Source: Clostridioides sp. (lineage in GTDB: Bacteria; Bacillota; Clostridia; Peptostreptococcales; Peptostreptococcaceae). Taken from it: a stretch of DNA of 64,000 nt. The position numbers and the translations under genes were made by a program. Position 1 is the stretch's first letter. Each line of letters begins with the position of its first letter. The notes below the pieces were generated by a model. The model worked only from the letters and a program-made list of their open reading frames with translations, searched no databases and was not told where the DNA came from. The stretch is from NCBI GenBank assembly GCA_031261505.1, contig JAISJN010000004.1:1-64000 (forward strand), given 5' to 3'. Shown piece after piece: positions 752 to 47,542 of this stretch.

Positions 752-769
752 TCAAAGTCTGGAAATATA

Positions 770-812: not shown

Positions 813-816
813 TTAT

Positions 817-1181: not shown

Positions 1182-1759
1182 CTTAAATAGTTACTTAATT
1201 GAAAGAATAAACATCTTCCAAAGAAGAACGACTAATTGCCACTCAAAATGTAATTAATAGGAAGTTGGAGATTCGTCTCAAGTTGTAAGGAGCTCGATTT
1301 GATAATTACAATGAATACAGTATACATAATACAAATATTACAACATTGAGATCTAGGTACATATTAATAAAAATCGAGCGACAATCAATAATAAACAGCA
1401 CTAACTAGAAAGCATTAGATAACACATATACATACAGTATGACGTGTAGATATTGTTACAATAATTCAAAAATATTGTAATTTCGAAAAACTGGAAAGTT
1501 AGCTCCAAATTTACAATAGAGTAATACGAGGATAGATTTAGGCTAGTTAAACGACTAGTCTGGATTTATATATAATTTGAGAAAGATGTACCGCATCCAT
1601 ACTGATTACGGTCATAATTCTCAAGTAGTGGTGAAGTCTGCCACATCATCATTTTAGTGAGCTAGCAATGGCAAACTAAACAGACCAATATCATGCATGT
1701 AGTATACGAAATCTATATTGTACATGTGCAACAAAATTTGACAGATGAGGGAGAGTTGT

Positions 1760-2887: not shown

Positions 2888-2916
2888 CAATCACAAAATA
2901 TTGGGAGGACAGAATT

Positions 2917-3681: not shown

Positions 3682-3774
3682 TGAAATATTGAAAGAGTGA
3701 AACAGTGGTATATTGAAAAACAATCAGGTGTAGGAGCACTTTAATTAGTGCTCCAAACTTGGTATCTATTAATT

Positions 3775-3911
3775 ATAACTTGAGATAAATCTCCCACACC
3801 TCTATAGGTGGCGGGCATAAATCTCAAACCACGTGCTCACCAGAACAAGTGCTCGCCAGCACAAGTACTTTACAGCACAAGTACTTTACAGCACTAGAAA
3901 TAACCATTTAA
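3775..3911 (+). repeat. Intergenic hairpin repeat family, copy A (contains 16-bp tandem units)
   Basis: ataacttgagataaatctcccacacctctataggtggcgggcataaatctc...taaccatttaa. Confidence 0.7.
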
Positions 3912-3951
3912 GATATAAATTACAATTACGGTACTTGGGGGTAATATAGAA

Positions 3952-5007
3952 ATGAACAAAAAAATAAAGATGCTCTTTATGACTGTTGTGACCTTGTTCA
4001 CGATGTCCGGAGTGGTATCGAATGCAGCTGAATTTAACTTCTCAGTTAATACAAATATTCCAACAAATCAAGTTGATAAACAGAAAACGTATTTCGATTT
4101 GAAGATGGATCCAGGTGCTAATCAGACAGTGAGTATGGTGTTAAAAAATACTACTGACAAAGATATAGTTGTACAAACTGAGATAAATTCAGCGAAGACT
4201 AATACGAATGGTGTAGTAGAGTATGGGCAGACAAATATCAAAAAAGACAAGTCTTTAATATACGATATGAGAGACTACATCACTACTCAACCAGAGGTGA
4301 AAATACCTAAACACGGGCAATATACGTTAAACATAGACATAAAAATGCCACAGGAAAAACTAGATGGAGTACTTGCAGGTGGAATTTCACTTATGCAAAA
4401 AGACAACGAGGATAAAAAAGACAGTAACTCTGGAGCGATGATACGCAATAAATTTGCCTATGTCGTGGGCATCGTACTAAGAGAAGATTTAAATCAAAAG
4501 ATACAGCCAGATTTATTGCTAAACAGCGTAAAGGCTACTCAGAGCAACTATAGAAATGTAATAGCATCTAATCTTCAAAACTATACACCTGCTTATGTTA
4601 ATTCTGTAGTAATAGATGCAAAAGCGTATAAAAAAGGCGATACTAGCAAAAAGACAGTATACGCTTCATCAGATAAGGGAATGCAGATGGCACCAAATTC
4701 CAACTTCGACTATCTAACTAGATTAAATGGAGGGAGAATAAAGGCTGGAAAGTATACAATGCACATGATTGTAACTTCCTCAACAGGTAGGTGGGAATTT
4801 GACAAAGATTTTGAAATAACCAAAACTATGGCTGGAGAATTAAACAAAAAAGACGTGGACATCAAAGACCATACAAGGATGTATATGATAATAGCTGTTG
4901 CCGTGCTAATTTTAGCGCTGATTGTATTCTTGATAATATTATTAGTAAAGAGAAAGAAGAAGAAAGATAAAGAAGAGGGTAAAGAAGTTGAATCATCAGT
5001 TAAATAA
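3952..5007 (+). CDS. DUF916/DUF3324 WxL-interacting protein, C-terminal TM and basic tail (cassette 1)
   Basis: Signal peptide; FDLKMDPGANQTVSMVLKNTTDKDI typical of DUF916; C-terminal MYMIIAVAVLILALIVFLIILLVKRKKKK. Confidence 0.88.
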   Translation: MNKKIKMLFMTVVTLFTMSGVVSNAAEFNFSVNTNIPTNQVDKQKTYFDLKMDPGANQTVSMVLKNTTDKDIVVQTEINSAKTNTNGVVEYGQTNIKKDKSLIYDMRDYITTQPEVKIPKHGQYTLNIDIKMPQEKLDGVLAGGISLMQKDNEDKKDSNSGAMIRNKFAYVVGIVLREDLNQKIQPDLLLNSVKATQSNYRNVIASNLQNYTPAYVNSVVIDAKAYKKGDTSKKTVYASSDKGMQMAPNSNFDYLTRLNGGRIKAGKYTMHMIVTSSTGRWEFDKDFEITKTMAGELNKKDVDIKDHTRMYMIIAVAVLILALIVFLIILLVKRKKKKDKEEGKEVESSVK

Positions 5008-5046
5008 TTTGATATATGTAGCGAATGATGAGTGGAGGTGATCTTC

Positions 5047-7788: not shown

Positions 7789-7990
7789 CATACCAAGATA
7801 CAGAATGATACAAAAAACACAAATGGATAAATTTATTAAAAAATATATTATTTTACAATAATACCTTATTTTAAAAATAGAAAACGTGTGAAATTACCAA
7901 AAAAATGAAGGCAAACGAATTTCCTTGGAAATAGACAAAAAAGTTTTGCTATCCTATAAAAAGTCGGTCATTTCGACGAATAATTTAATA

Positions 7991-8020
7991 TTGACACCTG
8001 GTACTAAGAGGTGATATCAT
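7991..8020 (+). promoter_or_regulatory. Predicted sigma-A-type promoter of WxL cassette 2
   Basis: TTGACA (7991-7996) N18 TATCAT (8015-8020); flanking sequence resembles 1152-1181. Confidence 0.6.
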
Positions 8021-8170
8021 CAGAAATAGTTATTTGCAAAATAACTTCAAGAGTATAAGTTAAGTTAAATTTGTTTTATGTATTAGGTTTATATGTATTC
8101 AATATCATGTATATTGCAGTTTGTATAATGCATAACATTTAACAAAATTTAACACATGAGGGAGGGTTAC

Positions 8171-9301
8171 ATGAAGTATAAGAAATTACTTACAATCCTG
8201 ACACTCACTTGTATATTGTTCACTTCAGTGTATGTGAAATGTGTAGATGCAGGGGGAGCAGTAGCTAAATCAAAGGTAGGAATAACGTTTAAAAATCCAT
8301 ATAGGCCTGGGGAGGATCCATCCGGAGGAGACGACACAGACGTAGGTGGATCTATAAACCACGAGAGTGGTGCAATAGTTCTTGCTAGTGGAGAAAAATA
8401 CACAGATGTATTGACAGCATCAGTGCTAGCGAATGAATTAGAAACTTCGTTACTTCTAACTAAAAAAAATGCTACACCTGGCAATACACTAGATGAAATC
8501 GACAGGCTCAAAGCTAAAATGGTTGTTGTCGTAGGAGGTACAGATTCTGTATCGAATTCGGTTGCGAGTAAGTTATCGAAGTACAAGGTAGTAAGACTTG
8601 CAGGACACGATAGATATGACACATCCATTAGAATAGCAGAAGAAGTCAGACGATTGACTGGTAATCTCACTGAGGCGACATTAGTATCGGGAGTAAATTT
8701 CCCAGACATCATAAGTATATCTACATTCTCGTCGCTTAAGGGCCAGCCTATTCTTATCACAGATCCAGAGAAAATCACTAAGACAACTGCAGATGCGATT
8801 TCTGACTGGAAAATATCAAACATCACTATAGGTGGAGGGTATAATTCAGTTTCAAAGAACATTGAGAACAATTTAAAGGCGAAGAAAGTAAATAGAATGG
8901 GTGGAGCAAACAGATACGAAACAGCAAAAATCATTTCAGAAAAAGTAACACAACTGACAGGAAATAAAAAAGACATGATATTAGTAGATGGGACTAACTT
9001 CCCAGATGGTATTTGCATAAACAGTTTAGCTACTCTATTTAAAGCACCAATTCTACTTACTACACCAGATTCGTTGCACAAGATTGTTGCAGAAGAAGTC
9101 AAAAAGAAGGATATACAGTATACTCTAATAGGCGGAGGATACAAGTCGGTATCACAGAAGGTACAAAGCGAGTTGAAAGTTAAGAATGTTGAAAGGGTAT
9201 TCGGAAGTGATAGATATGAAACAGCAGTGAAGATATCTCAGAGATATTCTAACAAGACTCTTCCACTCGGGGTCGATTTTAAGGCTTCGTGGAAGAATTA
9301 A
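8171..9301 (+). CDS. Secreted CWB2-repeat protein (cassette 2), paralog of 1760-2887
   Basis: MKYKKLLTILTLTCILFTSVYVKCVDAGG...; near-identical repeat layout to 1760-2887. Confidence 0.88.
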   Translation: MKYKKLLTILTLTCILFTSVYVKCVDAGGAVAKSKVGITFKNPYRPGEDPSGGDDTDVGGSINHESGAIVLASGEKYTDVLTASVLANELETSLLLTKKNATPGNTLDEIDRLKAKMVVVVGGTDSVSNSVASKLSKYKVVRLAGHDRYDTSIRIAEEVRRLTGNLTEATLVSGVNFPDIISISTFSSLKGQPILITDPEKITKTTADAISDWKISNITIGGGYNSVSKNIENNLKAKKVNRMGGANRYETAKIISEKVTQLTGNKKDMILVDGTNFPDGICINSLATLFKAPILLTTPDSLHKIVAEEVKKKDIQYTLIGGGYKSVSQKVQSELKVKNVERVFGSDRYETAVKISQRYSNKTLPLGVDFKASWKN

Positions 9302-9395
9302 TAATTAAAGCGCTTATCTTGAGTTGTGGAATTATTATGCAACTTCAAAGATTGGTTAGAAAATCAATAATTAAAACAATGTTGGAGGATGAAAT

Positions 9396-10136
9396 ATGAA
9401 ATTAAGAAAATTAGCTACACTTATGACGATAGCGGGAATAACACTATCATTTGCAGGGGTTAAGTCTTTTGCAGCAGATCAAGAACTAAAATCTCAAGCA
9501 AAGGTTGTATTTACAGCACCTATTGACCCTGACAAACCAATAATAGACCCAGCGGACCCAAATAACCAACCTCCAGGGAAACCAGATCCAGAGTCTCCAG
9601 GCACAGGAGGACTATTGTCAATAGACCACGTATCTAACTTTGATTTTGAAACACATGAAATAAAAATAGGACAGACTATGGACTTCTTCGCACTTCCACA
9701 AGCTTGGTTAGAAGATGATGGAACATCTTCTACTAAACCAAACTATGTACAAGTAAGCGATAATAGATTGACAGGTGAAGGATGGACATTGTCGGTAGCT
9801 CAAGATGGCGATCTAAAAACAGCAGATAATAAAATATTGACTGGAGCACAGATAACTGTAAGCAATATAGAAGGTGTTACAGCTCCATCTACATTAGTTC
9901 AATTGCCACTAGTCGCTTCTCAAAGAATAATAACTCCAGGAGTTGGATCTCAGATAATGATGTCAGCAGAAAAAGATAAGGGACAGGGAACTCACGTAGC
10001 TAGATTCGGTGATAATACTACTAAAGGTTCAAGCGTTAAGTTGACTATACCAAACACTACTACAGTATATGCTAAGACATATACTGCCAACCTTACTTGG
10101 ACATTATCAGATACTCCAGGAACTGGAACAATATAA
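9396..10136 (+). CDS. WxL-domain surface protein (cassette 2)
   Basis: Signal peptide; DPADPNNQPPGKPDPESPG; GWTLSV and LTWTLSDTP motifs. Confidence 0.88.
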   Translation: MKLRKLATLMTIAGITLSFAGVKSFAADQELKSQAKVVFTAPIDPDKPIIDPADPNNQPPGKPDPESPGTGGLLSIDHVSNFDFETHEIKIGQTMDFFALPQAWLEDDGTSSTKPNYVQVSDNRLTGEGWTLSVAQDGDLKTADNKILTGAQITVSNIEGVTAPSTLVQLPLVASQRIITPGVGSQIMMSAEKDKGQGTHVARFGDNTTKGSSVKLTIPNTTTVYAKTYTANLTWTLSDTPGTGTI

Positions 10137-10272
10137 CTTGAGATAATACCATGCCTTTTGAGGGGGCACAATCTAATTTCAGTGTAGGCTTAAATCCATG
10201 GTCACTCGATTGAAATTTGAGATAAATGCACATACCTCTTGAGGGGGGGAAAATCTAATTTTAGTGGAGGTG
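10134..10272 (+). repeat. Intergenic hairpin repeat family, copy B (two degenerate left halves in tandem)
   Basis: taacttgagataataccatgccttttgagggggcacaatctaatttcagtg and again tttgagataaatgcacatacctcttgagggggggaaaatctaattttagtgg. Confidence 0.55.
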
Positions 10273-10402
10273 GAGACTCACAGCCACGAAAAAGAGATTT
10301 AAAAGGAATGTAAATGTCTCAGGGCATTGAAAATTTATCGGTAGAGGAGTGCGTCTCAAGTACTCCTCTACTCGATTTATAGTACTTGGGGGTAGCATAG
10401 AA

Positions 10403-11440
10403 ATGAAGAGAAAATCAAGAATACTCATGATAGTATTTGTGACTTTGTTCACGATATTTGGAGGAGTGTCAAATGCAGCTGAGTTCAATTTTTCGGTAAA
10501 CACAAATACACCGGAAAACCAGATAGATAGAAATAAAACTTATTTCGATTTAAAGATGGAGCCAGGAGCAAATCAGACGGTGAGTATGGTTCTTAAAAAT
10601 ACCACTGACAATGACATAGTGGTAGAGACTGCTATAAATTCGGCAAAGACAAATACAAATGGAGTAGTTGAATATGGTGATTCAAACATTAAGAGAGATA
10701 AGTCGCTTAAATATGACATGAAAGACTACATCACCACTCAACCAGAGGTAAGAATACCTAAACACGGGGAGTACACATTAAATATTAATATAAATATGCC
10801 ACAGGAAAAACTAGATGGGATACTAGCAGGTGGAATTTCGCTTATGCAAAAAGATACTACAAAAAAGGAAGATGCGAATTCTGGAGCGGTTATAAGAAAT
10901 AAGTTTGCCTATGTAGTAGGTATTGTAATTAGGGAAGATTTGAATCAGAAAGTCCAACCAGATCTATTGCTAAACAATGTAAAAGCAACTCAAGTCAATT
11001 ATAGAAATGTAATATCCTCTAACATTCAGAACTACACCCCTACGTATGCAAATTCTGTAGCAGTAGACGCAAAGATATATAAAGAAGATGATACTAGTAA
11101 AAAAATAGTTTATTCCTCATCTGACAAGGGACTTCAGATAGCTCCTAATTCAAATTTTGACTATCTAACGAGGTTAAATGGACATAGATTAAAAGCTGGA
11201 AAGTATACAATGCATATGATCGTAACCTCATCAAAGGGCAGATGGGAATTTGATAAGAACTTTGAAATAACAGAGAAAATGGCTGGAGAATTGAACAAGA
11301 AGGACGTCGACATCAAGGATCACACTAGAATGTACATTATAATAGCTGTTGCTGTGTTAATATTAGCACTGATAATATTCTTTGTAAGAGTATTAGTCAA
11401 AAGAAAGAAGAAAAAGAACCGAGAAGAAGATATTAAATAA
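10403..11440 (+). CDS. DUF916/DUF3324 WxL-interacting protein (cassette 2)
   Basis: MKRKSRILMIVFVTLFTIFGGVSNAAEFNFSVNTN...; paralog of 3952-5007; SD ggggg. Confidence 0.88.
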   Translation: MKRKSRILMIVFVTLFTIFGGVSNAAEFNFSVNTNTPENQIDRNKTYFDLKMEPGANQTVSMVLKNTTDNDIVVETAINSAKTNTNGVVEYGDSNIKRDKSLKYDMKDYITTQPEVRIPKHGEYTLNININMPQEKLDGILAGGISLMQKDTTKKEDANSGAVIRNKFAYVVGIVIREDLNQKVQPDLLLNNVKATQVNYRNVISSNIQNYTPTYANSVAVDAKIYKEDDTSKKIVYSSSDKGLQIAPNSNFDYLTRLNGHRLKAGKYTMHMIVTSSKGRWEFDKNFEITEKMAGELNKKDVDIKDHTRMYIIIAVAVLILALIIFFVRVLVKRKKKKNREEDIK

Positions 11441-11498
11441 GAAGATATTAATAGAAGAAACTAATACATGTAATGAGTGATAGGTGGAGGTGGTCATT

Positions 11499-14246
11499 AT
11501 TAAATTATATAGATTACTGCCTAAAAAATTCGGAATGTGTGCTACCAAGTGTATATTTAGCAGTTTAGTAGCTTTGTTGATGATTATTCAGTTTGGATTT
11601 AGCAGTGGATATACCACTATATTTGCAGCCGATCAAAAGACAAAGCGTGACGTACCATCAGCACAGGGTGATACGACTGATGCAACAGGAAATGTTCCAG
11701 ATGCCTCGGATTACGATGTGGCAGAAATAGACAAAGATAAAATAGGAAAAGAGCAATCAAAAAAAGATGAAAATAAAAGGGAAAAAGATATATCGGGTAA
11801 TGAAGGTACACCCAAAATTGTAGAAAAAGACAATGAGGATACCGATGAAATACCTGAATCCAATATAAAACAAGCATCTGGCGAACCGTTGTTACCAGGT
11901 GAGGAAGAAGTCAAAGATTGGAATGAGTTTAAGTCAGCATATGAGGATCCAAGCGTGACAAAAATATATTTAACGGCTGATATCACAAGCCCTAAGTTAA
12001 CTATTAAGATGAATCTCAGGGATAGAAACTTGACGATTGACGGAAGATATCACAAGCTGACAATACTTGAAGTAGGTGCAGGGGATGATCACGCTTCTCT
12101 TCCAACCGGAGATAATAATACAGACCCAAATCCTGAATTCAAAATAGAAAATATGACAATAGCTCAAACTGTGTACGTCGCTGGAGAGGAACGTAGGAAC
12201 CGAGCTTTCATTAACAGTTCTGCAGAGGGTGCTAAGAAACTTTGGACGTATTACGCAAAGAATATAAAGACAGAGAAAATTAACGATCCTCAAAATCCAC
12301 CGATTTCTAGGCTGATAGATGCTGAAAAGAGTAGGCTCGTTATAGAGGGTGAAGTAGAGGTATACACTGCGTCAGAAGCAGCCGTTATAGGATCGGTTAC
12401 GGTCAAGAATGGTGCTAAATTTACATCTAAGATCGTAAAAAATGGCGATGCGAACATATATATGCTAAATGACGTGAGAGCAGACAATAAAGACAAACGT
12501 GACTTCACGATAGAAGAAGGAGCGACTGTAAGTCTAGAGCCAGCGGACGGTAAGGGTAGATACCCTCCAATATTCAACAACTTCAGTACTATAACCGTCG
12601 GAAAGAATGCAAAACTATCATGTTTAGCAGCTGGAAATGCAATGAGATTCGAAGCAGGATACGGGTCTGATTTGGAGGTAGAAGAAGGAGCGACACTTTT
12701 TTTAAAGAGTTACGGCAATGGAAGTAATGTAATATTCATGTCCGCTAACAGCTCTTCCATAACTACAGAGAAAGGATCTAAGATATACATCTACTCAGCA
12801 TCCAAAGAAGCAGTTATAAGAATGGGTAGCGATAATGGTACTTCAAACAAAAATACTATCACGATAAATAATCCAGCAGCTTTTGATATAGTATCAACTA
12901 AGGGTGGAGATGTGTTTAGCAATATATCCAGAACCGATAGTTTCGAGGTGAATGGTGTGAGTTTGTTTGCCTGGAACAAAAATGCGGATATCCAAAAGAA
13001 CCCAACTAAATGTTTTGACTACGCAAATAATGTCACAGTTCAAGTAAATACCACTGTAAAATCTGATAACCCAGATGTTACAGCGAATTTAAAACCGAAC
13101 AATAGAAGTAGGATATCTGGTGGAGATTTTACTCCAGAAATAGTCTACGGTAAAGTTCCTGATTCATGTGAACATAATAATAAGTTAACAGATGCGGACA
13201 AGACAATAAGGGCAAGGGTAAGACTAGGAAAATTTCCTAAGGTAGATGCCGACGAGAATATAAGCCTTGCAACAGATGTACAAGATGTATGGGCGACGAA
13301 GGACTTTTTCTCAAGAGATGCGAAGATCGAAAATTCAATCGACTCGCAGGGAGTAAATTTAAATACAGATGAAAACGGGTATTTGAAATACACAGCTAAT
13401 AATTTTTATCCATCGGGAACTCATTTCAAGGCAACTATAGACAGGTCGTATATATCTGGAAAATCAGATGTAGTTGCAGAAACCGATGTAATAGACATCA
13501 CACCGCCAAATCCATCAGTGCTTGTAACAACTCCAATTAAATACTCTACAAGAGTGATAGATGGTACAGCGGATGAAATCGGAGCAACTGTAAAAGTCAA
13601 ATACGATGGAGCGTTCATTCAAAAAAATGGACAGGACGTACAGACTACAGTGGGTGCCGATGGCAAATGGAAACTTGAGTTGCCGAATATAGAGTTAGAA
13701 GCAGGAAAGAGCGTAGCGATACACATGATTGATACAAGTGGAAATATAAATCCAGATGTAGATACAGTAGTTCACGACGCTACGTTTAAAAAAGCAACTG
13801 CTATAAAAGTATCAGGTGTGCTAGAACTAAGCAATATTCCAGACGAAATAAGTTTTGGAACAATGGAGTTAACCCCAGGGTCGTCACTGGAAAAATGGGG
13901 CAGCTACACAGGTACATTGGCAGTAGTGGACACAAGAGAAACAAAGAAAGAATGGCAGTTAAGCGCCAAGATGAGCAAAGAGTTGACGGATGACTACAAC
14001 AGCAGCAGAGTGATGCCGGGTGTAATTTCGTACTACTCAGGCGGAGTAAAAAATACGTTGACTGCGGTAGGTGATACGATAATCAAGCAAAATATGAACA
14101 CTAACTCAAGAGAGTATGTAGTTTCAAGTCAGTGGAACAACACGAACACAGGACTTAAGCTTGAAGTGCCGGCTAGCATGATTAGAGCGGGACAGTACAG
14201 TGGAGAAATTAAATGGTCTCTACAGGACGTTCCAATCAATCCTTGA
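11499..14246 (+). CDS. Large WxL-domain protein (cassette 2); likely ATT start at 11499, ORF-track start is GTG 11484
   Basis: Paralog of 5047-7788; C-terminal WQLSAKMSKELTD...IKWSLQDVP; SD GGAGGTG at 11486-11492. Confidence 0.8.
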   Translation: MKLYRLLPKKFGMCATKCIFSSLVALLMIIQFGFSSGYTTIFAADQKTKRDVPSAQGDTTDATGNVPDASDYDVAEIDKDKIGKEQSKKDENKREKDISGNEGTPKIVEKDNEDTDEIPESNIKQASGEPLLPGEEEVKDWNEFKSAYEDPSVTKIYLTADITSPKLTIKMNLRDRNLTIDGRYHKLTILEVGAGDDHASLPTGDNNTDPNPEFKIENMTIAQTVYVAGEERRNRAFINSSAEGAKKLWTYYAKNIKTEKINDPQNPPISRLIDAEKSRLVIEGEVEVYTASEAAVIGSVTVKNGAKFTSKIVKNGDANIYMLNDVRADNKDKRDFTIEEGATVSLEPADGKGRYPPIFNNFSTITVGKNAKLSCLAAGNAMRFEAGYGSDLEVEEGATLFLKSYGNGSNVIFMSANSSSITTEKGSKIYIYSASKEAVIRMGSDNGTSNKNTITINNPAAFDIVSTKGGDVFSNISRTDSFEVNGVSLFAWNKNADIQKNPTKCFDYANNVTVQVNTTVKSDNPDVTANLKPNNRSRISGGDFTPEIVYGKVPDSCEHNNKLTDADKTIRARVRLGKFPKVDADENISLATDVQDVWATKDFFSRDAKIENSIDSQGVNLNTDENGYLKYTANNFYPSGTHFKATIDRSYISGKSDVVAETDVIDITPPNPSVLVTTPIKYSTRVIDGTADEIGATVKVKYDGAFIQKNGQDVQTTVGADGKWKLELPNIELEAGKSVAIHMIDTSGNINPDVDTVVHDATFKKATAIKVSGVLELSNIPDEISFGTMELTPGSSLEKWGSYTGTLAVVDTRETKKEWQLSAKMSKELTDDYNSSRVMPGVISYYSGGVKNTLTAVGDTIIKQNMNTNSREYVVSSQWNNTNTGLKLEVPASMIRAGQYSGEIKWSLQDVPINP

Positions 14247-25159: not shown

Positions 25160-26596
25160 TTAAATTGAGGATTCACCTGTAAATATTTGAGTCCAGTAGA
25201 GCCTTCCACTTCTATTTGCAGCTATTCCGATTCCCAGACGCTCAAACTGAGGCATTAAAATATTATCCTTATGAGTTGGAGAGTTCATCCAATCTCTCAT
25301 GACCTGTTCAGGGCTCTTTTGTCCTACAGCTATGTTTTCTCCTGCCCAAGAGTAGGATATACCATTTGCCCTAAGCATATCAAACGCCGAGCCGTAAGTC
25401 GGTGAAATATGGTTGAAATATCCATTGTCCGCCATATCCTGTGATTTAAGTGAGGCGACCTCGCTTAAGCTTAAGTCAAAGACTACTGATTTCAAACCGG
25501 CTTTTCTTCTTTCTTGATTTACTAGTTTTAGAATTTCTTGATAGAACTTGGTGAATTCGTTTGTACCGGAGTTGTTTTCTTCGTCGCTATTCAACAGTAT
25601 CAAATTTATATCAGAGATTGCGTCTTCATTTCCGCTTCCACCTACCTGCAAAACTGTATTAAATCTCTTTGATTTTAAAAATGAAATCTGAGAATTTGAA
25701 AGAGTATCTCCGACCATCAAGATAGGAGAGTTTTCTTTGCTTGCCATAACGCCGACGGATAAGGCATCTGCCAAATCGGTAGACTTTTTGTTGCCGTCTT
25801 TCACTACTATAAGACTGTCTATATAAGGCTCCTTGTAAAAAGTATCGTTTATCTTTGCATTTATATCGTTTAGGGTTTCACCAGTGATATAATTAACCTT
25901 GTCTAGACTCGATATTTCACTAGGTAAATTCGACTTATCTCCCAAAACGTAGATGGTAGAGATATTATTTTTTTTGATATAGTCCTTAATTTTAGAGAAG
26001 TCGTCATTCCTATGTTGTAGAAAAATAGGCATATCGTATTTTGCTGATATAGGACCAAAACTAATTGCATCCAGTATACCTGATTCGGCGTTTGCAATCG
26101 CGATACTGTTTTGGAAAGCTAGATTGTTTAAATACGCCGCGAGTTTATAGGAAGTTTCACATCGGTCGGATCCAGCTATCCTTTCGGTGCGGTAACCGAG
26201 AGATTTAAGTAGCTTCTCTACGGAAGTTCCTATTGAGTTCGTGCCTCCGACAAGATACACCTTGCTCGGGTTAAGCCTTTGTATTTCAGTCAGAGTACTC
26301 TTACCTAGGACATCTTTATCAGATAAAAGTATTGGTGAATCTAGTTCTTCTGCGAGTGAAGTAGATGACACAGAATCTGGAATCGAGTCACTGCTGATTA
26401 GAAAAATGTTTTTTGCTCTAGCGAAGTTTCGCTGGCTTATCTTTACAGCAGTTTCGTAGCGGTCGATTCCAACTATGGATTCTTGAGCAGGTGTTCTAGA
26501 TTCAACAGTAAGACTAGAAGAATCTATTGATAACGATTGCACAGTCGAGAAAAAAACTGCACACATTGTAAGCACGACTGTTGTTTTCCTTAACAT
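25160..26596 (-). CDS. CWB2-repeat protein with C-terminal CAP/SCP domain
   Basis: Signal peptide MLRKTTVVLTMCAVFFSTVQSLS; CWB2 repeats IVGIDRYETAVKISQ; CAP motifs LVNQERRKAGLKSV, WAGENIAVGQKSPEQVMRDWMNSPTHKDNILMPQFERLGIGIA. Confidence 0.93.
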   Translation of the reverse strand: MLRKTTVVLTMCAVFFSTVQSLSIDSSSLTVESRTPAQESIVGIDRYETAVKISQRNFARAKNIFLISSDSIPDSVSSTSLAEELDSPILLSDKDVLGKSTLTEIQRLNPSKVYLVGGTNSIGTSVEKLLKSLGYRTERIAGSDRCETSYKLAAYLNNLAFQNSIAIANAESGILDAISFGPISAKYDMPIFLQHRNDDFSKIKDYIKKNNISTIYVLGDKSNLPSEISSLDKVNYITGETLNDINAKINDTFYKEPYIDSLIVVKDGNKKSTDLADALSVGVMASKENSPILMVGDTLSNSQISFLKSKRFNTVLQVGGSGNEDAISDINLILLNSDEENNSGTNEFTKFYQEILKLVNQERRKAGLKSVVFDLSLSEVASLKSQDMADNGYFNHISPTYGSAFDMLRANGISYSWAGENIAVGQKSPEQVMRDWMNSPTHKDNILMPQFERLGIGIAANRSGRLYWTQIFTGESSI

Positions 26597-37803: not shown

Positions 37804-37961
37804 CAATGTGTAGGTAAAAAATTTTGCGCTACAGACGTAGATGTAATAGATAAAAGATCCTAGAAAATAATTTGACAAATTTAGAGTTTAGCATTATTAT
37901 TTAAGGTAAGAAATCAATAAATAATTAATTGCTAAACAAAATTAAATATATTTGCGTATTA

Positions 37962-38112
37962 GGTTCTCAGATGAGAATAATAGGGAAAGAGGTTAAATTC
38001 CTCTACAGCCCTCGCTACTGTAATGCAGACGAAATTTATAATACCACTGTAATTTTTTTATGGGAAGGTAAATAGTAGGATGAAGCTAAGTCAGGAGACC
38101 TGCCTAGTATGG
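37962..38112 (+). promoter_or_regulatory. Cobalamin (B12) riboswitch
   Basis: gggaaagaggttaaattcctctacagccctcgctactgtaatgcagacgaaat...ccactg...tgggaaggtaaatagtaggatgaagctaagtcaggagacctgcct, including the B12-box-type AGTCAGGAGACCTGCC. Confidence 0.95.
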
Positions 38113-38213
38113 AATAAATTTTTTCGAGGAGAAGAAATTTGTTATTCTACTTATGGTGCGTCAATTTGTAGGTGTATTTGTTTGTATTCAAATTCACGAT
38201 ACTAATAATAGAT

Positions 38214-38247
38214 AAAAAGTCTAACTCTTCGGTTAGGCTTTTTTTTA
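38214..38247 (+). terminator. Intrinsic terminator downstream of the cobalamin riboswitch
   Basis: aaaaagtctaactcttcggttaggctttttttt: stem plus U-tract. Confidence 0.9.
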
Positions 38248-38287: not shown

Positions 38288-40057
38288 ATGAAGAAATTTA
38301 GAAATACTACAAAATTATTTATATCAATGTTTATCACATTAGTCGTGTTGATAGGAATAATGCCAAATAGTTTTGCGTACGAGGTAAATAACAGAACAGG
38401 TTCACCAGCTGGTCATGTGACGATGACAGTTGAAAAATTTACCTTAGGTCAAGGATATATCAGAGAGCCTATAAGGATGCACTTTAACACTGGGGATACT
38501 TATGAAGATCTAATCAAGAGATTCTTAGGCGAAGGAAATTACGATGGAAATGGATCAAAGGACGATGGTATGGGATATTATTTATCTGCTGTCAAAGATC
38601 CAGACACAAGCGCTATAAACGTGCCAGGGTACATAAAGAATAAAATAGAAGAGGGGGATTTAAACCTTCAAAGAAATGATCCAAAAGATTTCTTAAGCGA
38701 GATGGACTACACATTTATGTCTGGATGGATGTACTCAGTGAATAATCAATTCCTAGGTTATGGACTTAGCCGAGCTATACCTAAGGACGGAGATGTAGCG
38801 AGATTTCAATTCACCCTACATGGATATGGGAAAGATCTAGGAGATAATAGTTTTGAAACAGGAAATCCATATATCACAGTAGCTGATAAAACTAAACTTA
38901 CAGCAAAAGTAGGAGAGGTAAACAGCTCATCAGATAAGTCTAAGATGCTTACAAATTCAGGTGTAAAAGAAGCGTACAAGCATGCGCTGAAAGATGTTCT
39001 TCCAAATATGGAAGTAAGTCAGAAAGACGTAGACCAAGCTCTTAAAAATATTGAATCAGCCTTAGCTGAATACGATAAAAATGAACAGGGCAATGGACAA
39101 GGTGGAACAGGTGGAGGATCTGGAGGCGGATCAGTGACACCTAGCACGCCAAGTGTAAATGTAGAAAAACTTTCGGGCAGCAACAGATATGAAACAAGTG
39201 CGAAAATAAGCGAGAAAGGATTTGCAAATGCCGACAACATCGTAGTTGTAAACAGCTCGTCACTACCGGACGCACTTTCAGTAACACCATTTGCAAAATC
39301 AATAGACGCACCAGTTCTACTTACGGACAAGAACATATTGAATGAGAAAACTCTCAAGGAAATAAAGAGATTATGTGCAAAGAAGGTATATCTAATAGGT
39401 GGGGAAAACTCTATAAGCTCTGTTGTAGAAAATAACCTAAAGAGCGATAAATACGAAATAGAGAGAATAAAGGGTACAAACAGATATGATACATCATTAG
39501 AAATAGCTGATAAACTTGGAAAAACTTCAAAATCAACAGAAGCCATGGTGGTCAATGGTGAAAAAGGACTTGCAGATGCAGTGAGTGTAGGTGCTATATC
39601 GGCGACAAAGAATATGCCAGTAATTCTGACAAATGCTACAGATAATATGAAGGATGTAAATTCGTTTATCAAAGCAAAAGATATAAAGAAGGTGTACGCT
39701 GTAGGTGGAGAAAAATTATTCTCAAAAGAATCAGATAAACTACCTGGACTAGAGAGGATATATGGAAACGATAGAAACGAAACAAATAAGAAGGTAATAG
39801 AAAGATTCTACTCAGAAAAACAATTAAATAATCTTTATGTATGTAAAAATGGATCGCCAAAAACAATTGACTTAATAGATTCGCTTTCAGTAGGAGTACT
39901 TGCAAGCAAGACAGAAGCACCGATACTTTTGGTTGGAAGCTCGTTGAGCACAGGTCAGAAGGAATTGATAAAAGCTAAGAACTTTAAGACCTTGACTCAG
40001 GTCGGCGGAAACGGAAATGAAAAGGCATTTGAAGAGATAGTTGGTTTAGTGAAATAA
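38288..40057 (+). CDS. Secreted DUF4430 (transcobalamin beta-like) protein with C-terminal CWB2 repeats
   Basis: Signal peptide; MTVEKFTLGQGYIREPIRMHFNTGDTYEDLIKRFL...MSGWMYSVNNQFLGYGLSRAIPKDGDVARFQFTLHGYGKDLG; Gly linker GGTGGGSGGGS; CWB2 repeats LSGSNRYETSAKIS. Confidence 0.9.
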   Translation: MKKFRNTTKLFISMFITLVVLIGIMPNSFAYEVNNRTGSPAGHVTMTVEKFTLGQGYIREPIRMHFNTGDTYEDLIKRFLGEGNYDGNGSKDDGMGYYLSAVKDPDTSAINVPGYIKNKIEEGDLNLQRNDPKDFLSEMDYTFMSGWMYSVNNQFLGYGLSRAIPKDGDVARFQFTLHGYGKDLGDNSFETGNPYITVADKTKLTAKVGEVNSSSDKSKMLTNSGVKEAYKHALKDVLPNMEVSQKDVDQALKNIESALAEYDKNEQGNGQGGTGGGSGGGSVTPSTPSVNVEKLSGSNRYETSAKISEKGFANADNIVVVNSSSLPDALSVTPFAKSIDAPVLLTDKNILNEKTLKEIKRLCAKKVYLIGGENSISSVVENNLKSDKYEIERIKGTNRYDTSLEIADKLGKTSKSTEAMVVNGEKGLADAVSVGAISATKNMPVILTNATDNMKDVNSFIKAKDIKKVYAVGGEKLFSKESDKLPGLERIYGNDRNETNKKVIERFYSEKQLNNLYVCKNGSPKTIDLIDSLSVGVLASKTEAPILLVGSSLSTGQKELIKAKNFKTLTQVGGNGNEKAFEEIVGLVK

Positions 40058-40187: not shown

Positions 40188-42032
40188 GTGAAGATGACAA
40201 AAAGAGTTTTTGAATCATCCCTATGTCTGATATTAATAGTATCATTGTTTACATTAAACACTGGGAATATAGATGCACAAGAAGGTGGGGAAAATTATAT
40301 CTCTAGAAATCAGTCTAGTAAAAATACAGGAAAAGATTTAAAAAGGCAGGTGGATAGCTATATAAATGAATCCTGTAATTTTATGTACAAGCTCATACCA
40401 AACCCTTCAATAGGAACAATTGCTGGTGAGTGGACGGTGATGTCCATAGCAAGGTCTGGATTTAAGGTGCCAGACGAATACTACAGCAGATACTACGATA
40501 GAGTGGTAAAAGAATTGAAAGAGAAAAAAGGAATCCTAAGTACAGTGAAGTACACGGAGTATTCAAGGGTGATAATCGCTCTGACCGCTATTGGAAGAGA
40601 TCCGAGAAATGTTGTAGGATACAACCTAGTTGAAAAACTAAGCGATTTCAACAAAGTAAAGAAACAGGGGATAAATGGACCAATATTCGCTCTTATAGCC
40701 TTGGATACAAACGACTACGATATACCTAAGTCACAGAATGCTTCAACACAGACGACAAGGGATAAGTTAATAGGGTATATTTTGAGCAAGGAAATAACTC
40801 AGTCAGATAAAACGCAGGGTGGCTGGGCGTTGGAGGGAAATACTCCAGATCCTGATATTACTGCTATGGCACTTCAGTCATTAGCAAAATACAAGGATAA
40901 AACTATTGTAAATTCAAATGGTGAAACAGAAAATGTAGCCTCGTATATAGACAGGGGAATATCAATACTTTCGGATGCCCAATTGAGCAATGGCGCTTAT
41001 AAAAGTTGGGGGACCGAAAACATTGAATCTATTTCACAGGTGGTTTTAGCATTAACGGCTTTGGGAATAGACCCTAGGACAGATCCGAGATTCATCAAAG
41101 GCGATGGAAATTGGGCCTTGTCAGCAATGGAGGAATTTTACGTAGATGGAGGAGGATTCAAACATACTTTGGTTGGAGAGTTCGATGGAATGTCTACAGA
41201 CCAAGGAAGTTATGGACTAGTAGCATATCAGAGATTTGTGAGCGGTAAGAATAAGTTATACGATATGTCAGACGTGCCTAAAATATCGGATGCAGAAAAA
41301 GATGGAAACTCTGGAGAAAGCTCTGGAGCAAACCAAGATAGCAGTTCTGGAAACGGCTCGAAAAACGGATCTGGAAACGGATCAAATAGCAGTTCTAAAA
41401 ATAGCACGAAAAGCAACTCAAGTAGTAGTTTGAAAAAGAAGTCAACAACTGGTGAAAAAAATGAAAATCCAGAAGAAAAAAGTCCTGAGACTGTTTCTGG
41501 TACAGGAAAACTAGGTCAATCACCTAAGGATAAAAAGCCCAGATTACTAGATGTAAGGGAGTTATCCAAAGGCGATGACGGGGATTTATTCTTAAAAAAC
41601 AAGAGGGTAGTCGCTGTAAGTTTTGAAGCTAGACGTGGAGAACATGGAGAAGATGTAGTACAGAAGGTGTATTTTGATATGCGAGAACTAGTGTATTCCA
41701 GGGAACTCTCACAAAAATACAGTGTGGATACTTATATCGTATTATTAGATAAATCCATATCAGATGAAGAGCTAAGGGATATTGATAAATACTCATTTGA
41801 CAGTAAACTCAAGTCAGAGGAGATAATATTTGGAGATACTGATAATACAAAAATTATAAATGCACAGGACGCTGTGGATATATTATCGGTTTGCAAGAAA
41901 AAATCAGAGGCACCAGACAATAGGGGAAAAATAATTATGGATACGACGACAGATGGCAAGATAAACGCATTAGACGCGGTTGCAATCATGGATTACTATG
42001 TAGATGCCAAGCCATTTAGAATAGTCGAATAG
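40188..42032 (+). CDS. Secreted alpha/alpha-toroid (prenyltransferase/transcobalamin alpha-like) protein with C-terminal dockerin
   Basis: Toroid-like repeats GGWALEGNTPDPDITAMALQSLAKYK, NGAYKSWGTENIESISQVVLALTALGIDP, GGGFKHT..GEFDGMSTDQGSYGLVAYQRF; C-terminal FGDTDNTKIINAQDAVDIL...DTTTDGKINALDAVAIMDYYV dockerin motif pair. Confidence 0.85.
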   Translation: MKMTKRVFESSLCLILIVSLFTLNTGNIDAQEGGENYISRNQSSKNTGKDLKRQVDSYINESCNFMYKLIPNPSIGTIAGEWTVMSIARSGFKVPDEYYSRYYDRVVKELKEKKGILSTVKYTEYSRVIIALTAIGRDPRNVVGYNLVEKLSDFNKVKKQGINGPIFALIALDTNDYDIPKSQNASTQTTRDKLIGYILSKEITQSDKTQGGWALEGNTPDPDITAMALQSLAKYKDKTIVNSNGETENVASYIDRGISILSDAQLSNGAYKSWGTENIESISQVVLALTALGIDPRTDPRFIKGDGNWALSAMEEFYVDGGGFKHTLVGEFDGMSTDQGSYGLVAYQRFVSGKNKLYDMSDVPKISDAEKDGNSGESSGANQDSSSGNGSKNGSGNGSNSSSKNSTKSNSSSSLKKKSTTGEKNENPEEKSPETVSGTGKLGQSPKDKKPRLLDVRELSKGDDGDLFLKNKRVVAVSFEARRGEHGEDVVQKVYFDMRELVYSRELSQKYSVDTYIVLLDKSISDEELRDIDKYSFDSKLKSEEIIFGDTDNTKIINAQDAVDILSVCKKKSEAPDNRGKIIMDTTTDGKINALDAVAIMDYYVDAKPFRIVE

Positions 42033-42046
42033 GAGGTAGGGGAGTG

Positions 42047-42643
42047 ATGAAAAGAATAGCATTTATAGCTTCAATCTCTGGAGTGATAGCATTAAGTACA
42101 ATTGTAGTTTTTTCGCTTAAGGAAGAATCTAGTGTGATAGATCCAACAATCTACCTAGATCCACCAGCTCCTATTTCCGCAAATTCCGATAAAGAGTTTG
42201 AAGTAGCACTTAAGATGTCTGATCTGCCAGATGAAGTGTATCCAGGTGCGAGCATTTCAATCGGATTTGACAATTCAAAATTGGAATTCGTCGGTTTAAA
42301 ACCAGGGACAATGCAGACATCTGCGGATAAGCTACAGAGTGGTAGCGAATATGAGGTACCTACTTGGAATTGTAACATCGACGTATCAAATAAAAATGGA
42401 CAGATCAATGCGATGTATCTAGATATGAGCGATGGAAATCTAGCTTATAATAGGGATGGATTTAAAAAGGATAAGAGAGACGTAGTTTTGAAACTTGTGT
42501 TTAAGTTAAATGTAGTACAACGAGGTGATACATTGGATTTAAATATAGATGATGCAGTATTTGCAACGGTAGACAGGAGTAAAAGCCTAGCTATCGCCAA
42601 TAAAAAGCTAGAGTATAAGGACTGCAAGATAGTTGTGATGTAG
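42047..42643 (+). CDS. Membrane-anchored cohesin-like protein
   Basis: N-terminal TM MKRIAFIASISGVIALSTIVVF; FEVALKMSDLPDEVYPGASISIGFDNSKLEFVGLKPG...NGQINAMYLDMSD...VVLKLVFKLNV resembles the cohesin fold pattern. Confidence 0.72.
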   Translation: MKRIAFIASISGVIALSTIVVFSLKEESSVIDPTIYLDPPAPISANSDKEFEVALKMSDLPDEVYPGASISIGFDNSKLEFVGLKPGTMQTSADKLQSGSEYEVPTWNCNIDVSNKNGQINAMYLDMSDGNLAYNRDGFKKDKRDVVLKLVFKLNVVQRGDTLDLNIDDAVFATVDRSKSLAIANKKLEYKDCKIVVM

Positions 42644-42685: not shown

Positions 42686-43993
42686 ATGAGAGATATAGTT
42701 AAGAAGAAGGAGAAATTCTTTAAGAAGCTAATACCACTCATATTTATAGTATTGGTATTAATATCATTAGTCGGTTGTGGTATAAAGACAAATATATCTA
42801 GGACAAATGATATACCAAAGGATGGAATAGTAAGGGCTGAGACATTTAAGGCTATAAAGGAAGCAAAGGATATGGCAATGTTTGATGGTGATGATGGAAA
42901 TATAAAATATCAATGGATGTTTGTAGGTAGCGATATAGATAAACCAGAGGATATAAATCTATTGATTAGAGAAAATACATCGAATATCGAAACCGTAAAA
43001 AAACAACTTAAATCAGATGTAGTTCAGGGAATTTCATTTGCGGAAACGAAGTCTATAGATTCAAATCCTGCAGTGTCTATTACTTTAGATAATAAGTACG
43101 ATATAACAGGTGCAGAGATTTACAGGATGGATAGCGGCGATAGTAAAGATAGTAGTGATAGCAGCGATAATAAAGATAGAAAAGTTTCGAAAGCTGTAAA
43201 GGTAGCAAACGCAACGGTTAATACATCGAATAGGACAGTAGTAAACTTTTCAATAAAAGATAGAGAAGGCGTGTTTTATATAGTAGGAAGTCAGCCTAAG
43301 AAAGACGCTATAGAGGTAAATAAGGCAAATACGTCGGATAAGGGTGAAACCGGAAAATCAAGTAATAATCAAAATAAAGATAAAAGTTTAGCTGAAGGTA
43401 AAGATTCATCGAAAGAAGGAGATTCAAAAGCAGGAGTCACACAGGGGCAAAATGGATCGAGTAAAGGCTCCAATGTAAATAAGGATAAGTATCTCACAGA
43501 ACCGACTCCAGCAGGTAAGCCAAAGCCAGTTGAGCCAGGTGACAGCACAGTGAATAAGAGCAAGAAGATGTACGCTACCTTATCTGTAAGATGTGATGTC
43601 CTATTGAAATCAGAAAATCTCAAAACTGTCACAGATAATGGAAAGGGCGATATGGTACCATCGAATGGGGTGATCTACCAATCTAAGAGAGTCGAATTTT
43701 CACAAGGAGAATCCGTATTCGACGTGCTTATAAGGGAGATGAAGGCTTCAAATACACAGATGGAGCATGTATTTACTCCAATGTACAATAGTGCCTATAT
43801 AGAAGGAATACATAACTTGTATGAATTTGATGGAGGTGAACTAAGTGGATGGATGTACAAGGTGAATGGGTGGTTTCCAAACTACGGTTGTAGCCGATAT
43901 CAACTCAAGGAAAACGACAGCATAGAATGGGTGTATACCTGTGATTTAGGTAGAGATGTCGGCTGTGATTGGTTGGAGGGACAACAGAAATGA
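42686..43993 (+). CDS. DUF4430 lipoprotein (putative cobalamin-binding component)
   Basis: Lipobox LVGC; C-terminal DUF4430-like MYATLSVRCDVLLKSENLKTV...GESVFDVLIREMKASN...LSGWMYKVNGWFPNYGCSRYQLKENDSIEWVYTCDLGRDVG. Confidence 0.88.
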   Translation: MRDIVKKKEKFFKKLIPLIFIVLVLISLVGCGIKTNISRTNDIPKDGIVRAETFKAIKEAKDMAMFDGDDGNIKYQWMFVGSDIDKPEDINLLIRENTSNIETVKKQLKSDVVQGISFAETKSIDSNPAVSITLDNKYDITGAEIYRMDSGDSKDSSDSSDNKDRKVSKAVKVANATVNTSNRTVVNFSIKDREGVFYIVGSQPKKDAIEVNKANTSDKGETGKSSNNQNKDKSLAEGKDSSKEGDSKAGVTQGQNGSSKGSNVNKDKYLTEPTPAGKPKPVEPGDSTVNKSKKMYATLSVRCDVLLKSENLKTVTDNGKGDMVPSNGVIYQSKRVEFSQGESVFDVLIREMKASNTQMEHVFTPMYNSAYIEGIHNLYEFDGGELSGWMYKVNGWFPNYGCSRYQLKENDSIEWVYTCDLGRDVGCDWLEGQQK

Positions 43994-44904
43994 CGAAAAA
44001 CACTAGTAGTGTGATAAATTCTTTTGAATCATTTCATCCACTTGTAAACTTCTACTACTTCGCTGGAGTAATTGCATGCACAATGTTTTTTATGCATCCA
44101 GTGTTTTTAGTGATTTCGTTTCTCCTATCCTTTGCATATTCAGTTATGCTTAACGGGAAGAAAGCAGTTAGATTTAATTTACTTTATATGTTGCCTATTT
44201 TAGTTATAACGGCAGTAATCAATCCAGCGTTTAGCCATCAGGGGGTTACGATACTAGGATATTTAAGAAGTGGAAATCCACTTACCTTGGAATCTATAGT
44301 ATTTGGAATATGTTCAGCCTTCATGTTCGTATCGGTTATTCTATGGTTCTCGTGCTATAATGCAGTGATGAGTTCGGATAAATTTATTTATCTATTCGGG
44401 AGGATAATTCCATCGCTATCACTTATATTTTCCATGGTTTTGAGATTTGTTCCAAGGTATAAAAATCAGATCAAGGAGATATCTAATTCGCAAAAATGTA
44501 TAGGTAAGGATGTAAGTGATGGGAATCTCATTCAGAGGGCTAAAAATGGGATGAAGATAATTTCAATCATGGTTACCTGGGCGCTTGAGAATGGTATAGA
44601 GACAGCGGATTCTATGAAGTCCAGAGGTTACGGATTAAAGGGAAGAACCAGTTTCTCGAATTTTAGATTTGATTCTAGGGATAAAAAAGTTTTATCCCTT
44701 ATGATTGTTTTTACGATAGTTATATTATTTGGAGCCTATATGGGTGAAAATACCATGGTATTTTTCCCGAGCATGTACATTTCTGATTTTACGCCATTGA
44801 GCGCCCTTGTATACTTATCCTATTTTGGATTATGCTCAACGCCGTTGTGTATAGAGGTAATAGAAAACAAAAGATGGGCGAGAATTAAGGGGGAAATTAG
44901 ATGA
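43990..44904 (+). CDS. ECF transporter T component
   Basis: Multi-TM; LRFVPRYKNQIKEISNSQKCIGKD; SMKSRGYGLKGRTSF (A-R-G-like coupling helix); ATGA overlaps preceding stop. Confidence 0.9.
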   Translation: MTKNTSSVINSFESFHPLVNFYYFAGVIACTMFFMHPVFLVISFLLSFAYSVMLNGKKAVRFNLLYMLPILVITAVINPAFSHQGVTILGYLRSGNPLTLESIVFGICSAFMFVSVILWFSCYNAVMSSDKFIYLFGRIIPSLSLIFSMVLRFVPRYKNQIKEISNSQKCIGKDVSDGNLIQRAKNGMKIISIMVTWALENGIETADSMKSRGYGLKGRTSFSNFRFDSRDKKVLSLMIVFTIVILFGAYMGENTMVFFPSMYISDFTPLSALVYLSYFGLCSTPLCIEVIENKRWARIKGEIR

Positions 44905-46868
44905 GTGTATTCTCAGTTAAGAATTTAAACTTTACATATCCTCAGAGGAAGATTCCAGCATTAAGGGATATAAATATAGAAATAGATAAGGGAAAGTTTG
45001 TCCTTATCTGTGGAAAATCTGGATGTGGGAAGAGCACGCTCTTAAGGCATTTAAAACCGGTTTTGACACCACATGGGGAAAAAAGTGGAGAGATAAAATT
45101 TGGATCTAAAAATATAGATGAGGTAGATGCTAGAGAGCAGGCGTCTAAAATAGGCTACGTGCTTCAGAGCCCAGACAATCAAATAGTTACTGACAAGGTA
45201 TGGCACGAGTTAGCCTTTGGTCTAGAGAACCTAGGGTATGACAACAAGAGTATAAGGCTTAGAGTGGCTGAAATGGCTAGCTTCTTTGGAATTCAGACAT
45301 GGTTTCTAAAGAATGTATCAGAGCTATCTGGTGGACAAAAGCAACTTTTAAATCTAGCAGCAATCATGACTATGCAGCCAGAGGTCTTGATATTTGACGA
45401 ACCGACTTCACAACTAGATCCTATAGCAAAGGGAGAGTTTCTACAGACGATAAAAAAAATCAACACAGAGCTCGGCACGACTATAGTGATGTCAGAACAT
45501 AATTTAGAGGACGCGTTCAATATGGCTGATGAAGTTATAGTAATGGATGACGGTAGGATAATCGCTAGGGGTGAACCAAAGGCTGTAGGTCAGAGACTGC
45601 ACGAGATTGGCAGCGATATGTTTTCTGCAGTTCCAACACCTATGAAGATAGCCATAGAGGTCGAAAAAGACCTAGCTAGATTATCGACTATGGATGTAGA
45701 TACAAGAGAGTTTGATCACCATGGGGCGAGTCGAAACCGTGAAAGCCAAGAAAGTGAAAGTAAGAAATGCGAAAACAAGAAATATAAAAGTGAGAAATGC
45801 GAAAGTAAGGACTGCGAAATCCGAAACTTGAGCGAGATACCGATAAATGTGAAAGAAGGTCGCTTTTGGCTTGAGAAGATGTTTAGGAATAGAGAAATAA
45901 CTTGCAAGATAAATGATTTGGATTATAGAGAGAAAAATAATTTTACTGTATCAAATAGACATAGCATGCTTAAACTTAGCAGAAATAGAAAACCTAGTAA
46001 AAACGAGAAATTCAGCAAAAATAAGAAAATTAGATTATCAAGGCATGAGAACAAATCAAATTTAGCGATTTCAGTGAAAGGAGCCTGGTTTAGATACGAA
46101 AAAAACGAAGATGACGTGGTGAGGGATCTGTCAATAGATATAGAGACGGGAAAATTCCACTGCATAGTCGGTGGAAATGGAACGGGGAAGACGACGTCAC
46201 TCTACCTGATGAGTGGGATGAATAAGGTTCGCAGAGGCAGTGTAGAGATCTTTGGCAAAAATATAAATAAATACAGCAAGAAGGAGCTCTACTCCTGCGG
46301 TATCGCAGTACTTCCACAAAATCCTCAGACTCTTTTTACAAAGAAAAACGTAGAGCTAGACCTACTCGAGATGCTATCTGATAAAAAAATAGATAAAGAT
46401 AATAAGAGAGATATAATACAGAGCATATCAGACCTTGTGGGCATTGGAGAATTGATGAACTCTCATCCCTACGATTTAAGTGGAGGAGAGCAACAGAAGT
46501 TAGCACTTGCCAAGGTCTTATTGCTAGAGCCTAGGATTTTACTCCTAGACGAGCCTACTAAGGGATTTGATAGCGAATTCAACGATAGGTTTGCAGAGAT
46601 AATAGAAAAGTTAAAAGATAGGGGTGTAACCGTAGTCATGGTGACTCACGATATAGAATTCTGTGCTAGATATGCAGATAAATGTTCTTTGTTTTTCAAC
46701 GGAAATATCGTGACTACAGATAGGCCGAGAGAGTTTTTCTCGGGCAATAGTTTTTATACAACAGTGGCAAATAGGATGAGCAGAGGTTATTTTGAAGAAG
46801 CTATAACAAGTGAGGACGTGATAGATTTATGCAAGAAAAATCTAGATTTAGAAAAAGAACTATCCTAG
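44901..46868 (+). CDS. ECF transporter ATPase, two ABC domains fused
   Basis: Two Walker A (GKSGCGKSTLL, GGNGTGKTTSLY), two signature motifs (ELSGGQKQLLN, DLSGGEQQKLA), two Walker B (LIFDEPTSQLD, LLLDEPTKGFD). Confidence 0.95.
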   Translation: MSVFSVKNLNFTYPQRKIPALRDINIEIDKGKFVLICGKSGCGKSTLLRHLKPVLTPHGEKSGEIKFGSKNIDEVDAREQASKIGYVLQSPDNQIVTDKVWHELAFGLENLGYDNKSIRLRVAEMASFFGIQTWFLKNVSELSGGQKQLLNLAAIMTMQPEVLIFDEPTSQLDPIAKGEFLQTIKKINTELGTTIVMSEHNLEDAFNMADEVIVMDDGRIIARGEPKAVGQRLHEIGSDMFSAVPTPMKIAIEVEKDLARLSTMDVDTREFDHHGASRNRESQESESKKCENKKYKSEKCESKDCEIRNLSEIPINVKEGRFWLEKMFRNREITCKINDLDYREKNNFTVSNRHSMLKLSRNRKPSKNEKFSKNKKIRLSRHENKSNLAISVKGAWFRYEKNEDDVVRDLSIDIETGKFHCIVGGNGTGKTTSLYLMSGMNKVRRGSVEIFGKNINKYSKKELYSCGIAVLPQNPQTLFTKKNVELDLLEMLSDKKIDKDNKRDIIQSISDLVGIGELMNSHPYDLSGGEQQKLALAKVLLLEPRILLLDEPTKGFDSEFNDRFAEIIEKLKDRGVTVVMVTHDIEFCARYADKCSLFFNGNIVTTDRPREFFSGNSFYTTVANRMSRGYFEEAITSEDVIDLCKKNLDLEKELS

Positions 46869-47542
46869 CGAGTATATTGATTTTGATTGTAATACCGCTC
46901 ACTATCTTGGCGGGAGTGTTCTATATGGACGATAGGAAGTACTATGTCATAAGCATGGCTATACTAGCGTACTCGTTTTTGCCATTCATACTGGTTTTTG
47001 AAAATAGAAAGCCTCAGGCGAGGGAACTGATTGTTATAGCCGTATTATCTGCAATAGCTGTAGCGGGTAGAGGGGCGTTTTTTATGATTCCCCAGTTTAA
47101 GCCAGTGGTCGCCATAGTCATAGTATCAGGAGTCTGCTTCGGAGCTGAGTCTGGATTTTTCGTCGGAGCTATGTCTGGATTCGTCTCGAACTTTTTCTTT
47201 GGACAGGGTCCCTGGACGCCATGGCAGATGTTTTGTTTCGGAGTAATTGGATTCTTAGCTGGAATCATGTTTCAGAGGGGATTACTTAAGAAGAATGTAG
47301 TGCCATTATGTATTTTTGGAGGCATATCTACGTTTTTTATCTACGGTGGAATAATAAATATCTGGTCTCTGTTGATGTTCACCTCGGAGATAACCAAGGC
47401 ATCGGTCATAGCAATATATACGTCAGCGATTCCGTTTGACATGATTCACGCTGCATCTACTGTTGTATTTCTAGCACTTATAGCAAATCCTATGATTGAA
47501 AAATTAGATAGGATTAAGGTCAAGTATGGCTTGATAGAATAA
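46829..47542 (+). CDS. ECF transporter S component (putative cobalamin specificity)
   Basis: Multi-TM; ARELIVIAVLSAIAVAGRGAFFMIPQFKPVVAIVIVSGVCFGAESGFFVGAMSGFVSNFFFGQGPWTPWQM; overlaps ecfA by 40 nt. Confidence 0.85.
   Translation: MQEKSRFRKRTILASILILIVIPLTILAGVFYMDDRKYYVISMAILAYSFLPFILVFENRKPQARELIVIAVLSAIAVAGRGAFFMIPQFKPVVAIVIVSGVCFGAESGFFVGAMSGFVSNFFFGQGPWTPWQMFCFGVIGFLAGIMFQRGLLKKNVVPLCIFGGISTFFIYGGIINIWSLLMFTSEITKASVIAIYTSAIPFDMIHAASTVVFLALIANPMIEKLDRIKVKYGLIE

Follow-up and report, generated by a model that had tools for sequence, protein, structure and literature searches.

A dedicated cohesin-dockerin pair as a probable surface anchor in a predicted cobalamin-uptake operon of Clostridioides

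Cohesin-dockerin pairs are best known from cellulosomes, and the question raised by this locus is what a dockerin gene and a cohesin-like gene, placed side by side, would do in a vitamin locus. The two genes lie in a 64,000-nucleotide stretch from Clostridioides sp., a gut-type clostridium; the whole stretch is referred to here as the window. A first-pass annotation had proposed that the pair tethers a soluble 'B12-barrel' protein to the membrane, next to a DUF4430 lipoprotein and a transporter, and that no cellulosome is involved. The predicted features of the operon, all on the forward strand (+), are as follows.

37872..37900, +, promoter-like site TTGACA-17-TATTAT (11/12) from a consensus scan; such sites are not more numerous in the region than in shuffles
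37944..38121, +, cobalamin riboswitch aptamer (RF00174; 121.8 bits, E 4.9e-30), ahead of the operon
38214..38243, +, terminator-like hairpin and T run between the aptamer and the first gene, probably the riboswitch expression platform (role inferred)
38288..40057, +, secreted cell-wall protein with DUF4430 and three CWB2 repeats (Pfam PF14478, PF04122)
40188..42032, +, secreted toroid-dockerin protein, 614 aa
residues ~70-360 of that protein, +, alpha/alpha toroid (from the model)
residues 369-447 of that protein, +, Ser/Asn-rich low-complexity linker
41544..41822, +, beta domain ahead of the dockerin (residues about 453-545; strands in the model), kept in dockerin-bearing toroid proteins
41823..42005, +, dockerin (residues 546-606), with calcium loop 1 at 41835-41870 and loop 2 at 41940-41975
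42047..42643, +, membrane-anchored single cohesin with an N-terminal transmembrane (TM) segment; cohesin domain 42143-42637
42686..43993, +, DUF4430 lipoprotein with a lipobox-like SLVGC (Pfam PF14478, 62.7 bits; alignment)
43987..44904, +, EcfT (CbiQ family, PF02361); mechanical ORF start 43969 (TTG)
44901..46868, +, fused EcfA-EcfA' ATPase with two ABC_tran stretches (TIGR04520/TIGR04521)
46829..47542, +, CbrT-like ECF S component (PDB match 6FNP_A)

The vitamin assignment of the first-pass annotation was borne out, and the riboswitch together with the CbrT-type S component identifies the operon, at the level of sequence, as a B12 locus. 6FNP_A was the sole PDB match of the S component (E 2.7e-10), and 6FNP is ECF-CbrT, for which cobalamin transport has been demonstrated (PMC5997447). 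The ECF module of the operon is thus predicted to be of the CbrT type, its transport of cobalamin being inferred, and control of the operon by B12 is likewise a prediction from the upstream RF00174 match, there being no regulation data. Tandem pairs of cobalamin riboswitches were seen at two other loci, L054 (661-855 and 1044-1224) and L061 (2544-3003, ahead of the dockerin gene). The DUF4430 domain, which occurs at the C terminus of transcobalamins (PMC4350170), is absent from the 40188-42032 chain and present in the proteins starting at 38288 and 42686; in relatives such as L051 it lies within the dockerin protein itself. Elsewhere in the window, CWB2 proteins were found in a tandemly duplicated four-gene surface cluster at 1745-14246 (CWB2 protein, WxL protein, WxL-interacting protein and large pectate-lyase-like adhesin) and, combined with a CAP domain, at 25160-26596 (-).

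Both dockerin-type segments that had been placed at the C terminus of the toroid protein are present, calcium loop 1 at residues 550-561 (DTDNTKIINAQD) and loop 2 at residues 585-596 (DTTTDGKINALD). The comparison with PF00404 that had been proposed for them gave a mixed outcome: the window copy scored 15.2-17.6 bits, under the cut-off of 22.9, whereas PF00404 matched 30/30 aligned dockerin copies at E<=0.05 (best E 2e-9). The calcium-ligand positions 1, 3, 5, 9 and 12 of both loops were conserved as D, N or T (one E) in all 30 copies, and a profile of the alignment retrieved solved dockerins from the PDB at E about 1e-5. The window copy carries Thr at position 5 of loop 1 and at position 3 of loop 2; the former, with the score below the Pfam cut-off, counts against an account of the pair as an anchor. 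Since a whole-genome scan with PF00404 alone returned nothing at E<=0.001, a lineage dockerin profile was used. HMMs for dockerin and cohesin were also built from the remaining relatives with the window's family left out, and of 190 window ORFs the held-out dockerin HMM matched the 40188-42032 protein alone (E 1.2e-17), while the held-out cohesin HMM matched its neighbour 42047-42643 alone (E 6.9e-64). That the two HMMs singled out two adjacent ORFs places the pairing far above chance. By these profiles the C-terminal segment is a predicted dockerin with two F-hand calcium loops, and its calcium-dependent binding of a cohesin is inferred.

The neighbouring gene starts at ATG 42047 or GTG 42044, encodes an N-terminal hydrophobic anchor with one TM segment, and has a GGAGG ribosome-binding-like site that overlaps the stop codon of the toroid-dockerin gene. 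Its product, the genome's sole cohesin match, reached 25.6 bits against PF00963, above the cut-off of 24.1, and the same family matched 32/32 aligned cohesin copies at E<=0.05. A PDB sequence search with a larger cohesin alignment gave two weak matches only, both of them cohesin chains. The evidence that we regard as decisive for cohesin identity, although it is drawn from a predicted structure, is the fold search: the AF2 model (mean pLDDT 75) had cohesins for all of its best 50 PDB matches, with E from 2e-9 and target-normalised TM scores up to 0.77. An unrelated fold, which would have refuted the first-pass annotation, did not appear among them. The product is accordingly modelled as a membrane-anchored cohesin, and its binding of the dockerin is inferred.

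The dockerin-bearing protein has a signal sequence and no anchor of its own. Its core is an alpha/alpha toroid instead of a 'B12-barrel'. A fold search with the full-length toroid model (8ixt and 3kq4 among the top matches) returned transcobalamin and intrinsic factor, but also prenyltransferase subunits at similar scores, and its TM scores were modest. Because these fold matches are shared with prenyltransferases, B12 binding by the toroid rests on context, and from that context we infer that the protein is probably B12-handling. We do not assign the protein to the transcobalamin family, because aligned toroid sequences, searched against the sequences of the PDB, matched squalene-hopene cyclases and not transcobalamin. 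Between toroid and dockerin lies the beta domain, which was missing from the first-pass annotation and is conserved alongside the dockerin across the survey. A sequence search of the PDB gave no relative for it, and no structural relative was identified. In type II systems an X module sits ahead of the dockerin, and the beta domain is X-module-like in position only, kinship to X modules not being established. Among other toroid proteins, that of L104 (780-2399) is a 539-aa fusion of toroid and DUF4430, a transcobalamin-like arrangement in a bacterium, and L091-L121 (Paenibacillus, Cohnella) encode giant proteins of ~1450-2500 aa upstream of the lipoprotein, with two or three toroids, DUF4430 and SLH segments.

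A survey of DUF4430/ECF loci for co-occurrence, as the first-pass annotation had suggested, was carried out from a search with the lipoprotein, which gave 80 loci among the matches listed, with 243 further lipoprotein relatives lying outside the sample. An upstream toroid gene could be read in 74 loci, the window and L042 included; among these, 30 had both dockerin and cohesin, 44 had neither and none was discordant. The order of dockerin then cohesin was kept and the gap between the genes was 0-79 nt, a single locus excepted. Carriers among the listed loci comprised Romboutsia, Terrisporobacter, Clostridium, Oscillospiraceae, Christensenellaceae and one Bacillus record. Five other genomes of the window's family held cohesin relatives, each with the toroid-dockerin gene adjacent, and the pair was missing from four further genomes of the genus to which the window belongs. 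The pair is rare and patchy, since another 398 genomes from the phylum gave no match to either part at E<=1e-10. The lipoprotein has a long N-terminal region that was considered as a companion of the cohesin and rejected as such; it is also present in the cohesin-less L056, L067 and L073, and is therefore a clade marker and not a pair marker. The record titled Bacillus sp. REN16 (L054, 1393-6151) carries a clostridial-type dockerin/cohesin B12 operon, by horizontal transfer or contamination.

The 42047 product could nevertheless be a cohesin-like beta-sandwich that does not bind the dockerin and instead partners the lipoprotein or the transporter structurally, while the dockerin-like tail binds calcium for stability only. 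Similarity to cellulosomal cohesins is indeed low, at 10-18% in fold alignments, and there are no interaction data for the pair. We consider this unlikely, as a protein with only such a role at the transporter would be expected in dockerin-less loci too, and cohesin and dockerin are instead strictly present or absent together. The table nonetheless overstates the statistics: in a tree of the toroid domain the dockerin bearers require three changes, at least two of them forced by supported branches, so that the co-occurrence represents only 2-3 independent evolutionary changes and the 74 loci are not 74 independent trials. More telling is L083, which lies inside a supported dockerin clade and yet lacks dockerin and cohesin alike; the toroid protein there ends in a TM helix. 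No other single observation argues as strongly for a functional link as the absence of both parts at this locus, although L083 is one metagenome-assembled contig and calls for caution.

The numbers of genes per genome bear on a further possibility, namely that dockerin and cohesin belong to, or are left over from, a cellulosome or adhesin system and merely happen to be located in a B12 operon. Beyond the familiar cellulosomal setting of both domains, this could draw on L066, where a further dockerin-like segment (residues 792-854) occurs in a second protein, which has a C-terminal sortase-like signal and is encoded upstream of the operon (2-3565). Each of the six genomes checked, however, had a single dockerin and a single cohesin of this type, and therefore no cellulosome, as had been supposed at the outset. 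Both hallmarks of a cellulosome are lacking: the genome has one cohesin domain in place of a scaffoldin with several, and a single dockerin of the present type (PF00404 finds none at E<=0.001) in place of several dockerin-bearing enzymes. The pair also keeps the same operon slot across several families among the listed loci, and a cobalamin riboswitch lay 5' of the dockerin gene in 7/7 cohesin loci tested. We regard a cellulosomal or adhesin origin of this kind as scarcely credible.

What the pair is for is best judged from the loci that lack it. The toroid proteins of the 44 pair-less loci mostly carry another surface anchor: a C-terminal SLH segment in 19, an internal SLH segment in 13, a sortase-like signal in five and a C-terminal TM segment in four, with a DUF4430 fusion, a Cu-amine-oxidase N-domain and no recognised anchor in one each (anchor types were assigned by script, with a Pfam check on a sample only). 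Since the same slot is otherwise filled by proteins with built-in anchors, surface retention is indicated as the purpose, and tethering of the toroid protein to the membrane is the best inference, in the absence of binding data. The anchors seem to be interchangeable, the pair being one of several that can keep a B12-capture protein next to the transporter. What the analysis itself shows is the gene content, the riboswitch, the domain identities, the strict co-occurrence and the other anchors found in this slot. On these we judge it very probable that a dedicated 1:1 cohesin-dockerin pair serves as surface anchor in this cobalamin-uptake operon, where binding, its calcium dependence, B12 binding and hand-off are inferred.

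In animals, toroid and DUF4430 domains jointly make up transcobalamin and intrinsic factor, and it is established that these proteins work by diffusing and returning to a receptor. The toroid-dockerin protein, which carries a signal peptide but lacks a built-in anchor, might similarly be released in part as a diffusible corrinoid scavenger with the cohesin as its return receptor, the contacts between cohesin and dockerin being non-covalent. The other anchors in the same slot are permanent, which speaks for retention and not release, and such partial release seems to us improbable. Its fuller form, a releasable bacterial counterpart of transcobalamin that binds corrinoid outside and returns to the cohesin receptor, with calcium or ligand controlling docking, is no less speculative.

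Under the anchor account, low B12 would relieve the riboswitch, and the operon would then yield the toroid protein without its own anchor, the single-TM cohesin, the DUF4430 lipoprotein, the DUF4430 wall protein and the ECF-CbrT-type transporter. The calcium-loaded dockerin would plug into the cohesin on the outer side of the membrane, so that the docked toroid is held beside the DUF4430 lipoprotein and the S component. Toroid and DUF4430 domains may together capture corrinoid, which would be passed to the S component. If true, this would carry the cohesin-dockerin plug beyond fibre degradation into vitamin capture, and would show how some Gram-positive bacteria hold an intrinsic-factor-like protein at the membrane. 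It also provides a swap series around one cargo (dockerin/cohesin, SLH, sortase-like, TM and fusion) and a small dedicated binding pair that is directly testable. Many carriers are hindgut and rumen clostridia, from habitats where corrinoid competition matters.

Cohesin-dockerin pairs outside cellulosomes are already known, and the link to a vitamin-uptake operon is new within the literature searched, no connection of either domain with B12 or vitamin uptake having been found in open-licence PMC papers. The best fold and sequence matches of the window pair are the type I cellulosomal pairs (PDB 1ohz, 5lxv, 6kgf), which share the two domain families, the F-hand calcium loops and the cohesin beta-sandwich. 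In contrast to these, the window system has one cohesin and one dockerin per genome, a toroid cargo, a B12 operon and no scaffoldin, and at positions 10-11 dockerins of this kind have A-Q in loop 1 but mostly T-F in loop 2. The non-cellulosomal cohesins of C. perfringens (2jh2/2w1n) and Archaeoglobus (2xdh), also among the fold matches, resemble the window pair in being used outside plant-fibre degradation. The known cases of this kind are nevertheless secreted glycoside hydrolases or putative adhesins, the latter including proteins of ANME partner bacteria in methane-oxidising consortia (PMC10553843), whereas here the pair belongs to a vitamin-uptake operon. With ECF-CbrT (6FNP) the window shares the CbrT-matching S component and EcfA/EcfA'/EcfT, but Lactobacillus delbrueckii CbrT uses a common shared module, while the window has its own dedicated one in one operon with extracellular capture proteins. 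The combination of toroid and DUF4430 recalls transcobalamin and intrinsic factor, although in the window they are on separate proteins and there are no B12 binding data. Closest in setting are toroid proteins that are anchored by SLH or sortase-like signals in related B12 operons, such as those of L084, L101 and L042, which occupy the same slot with the same toroid core; there the anchor is built in, whereas the window toroid would have it supplied by its partner.
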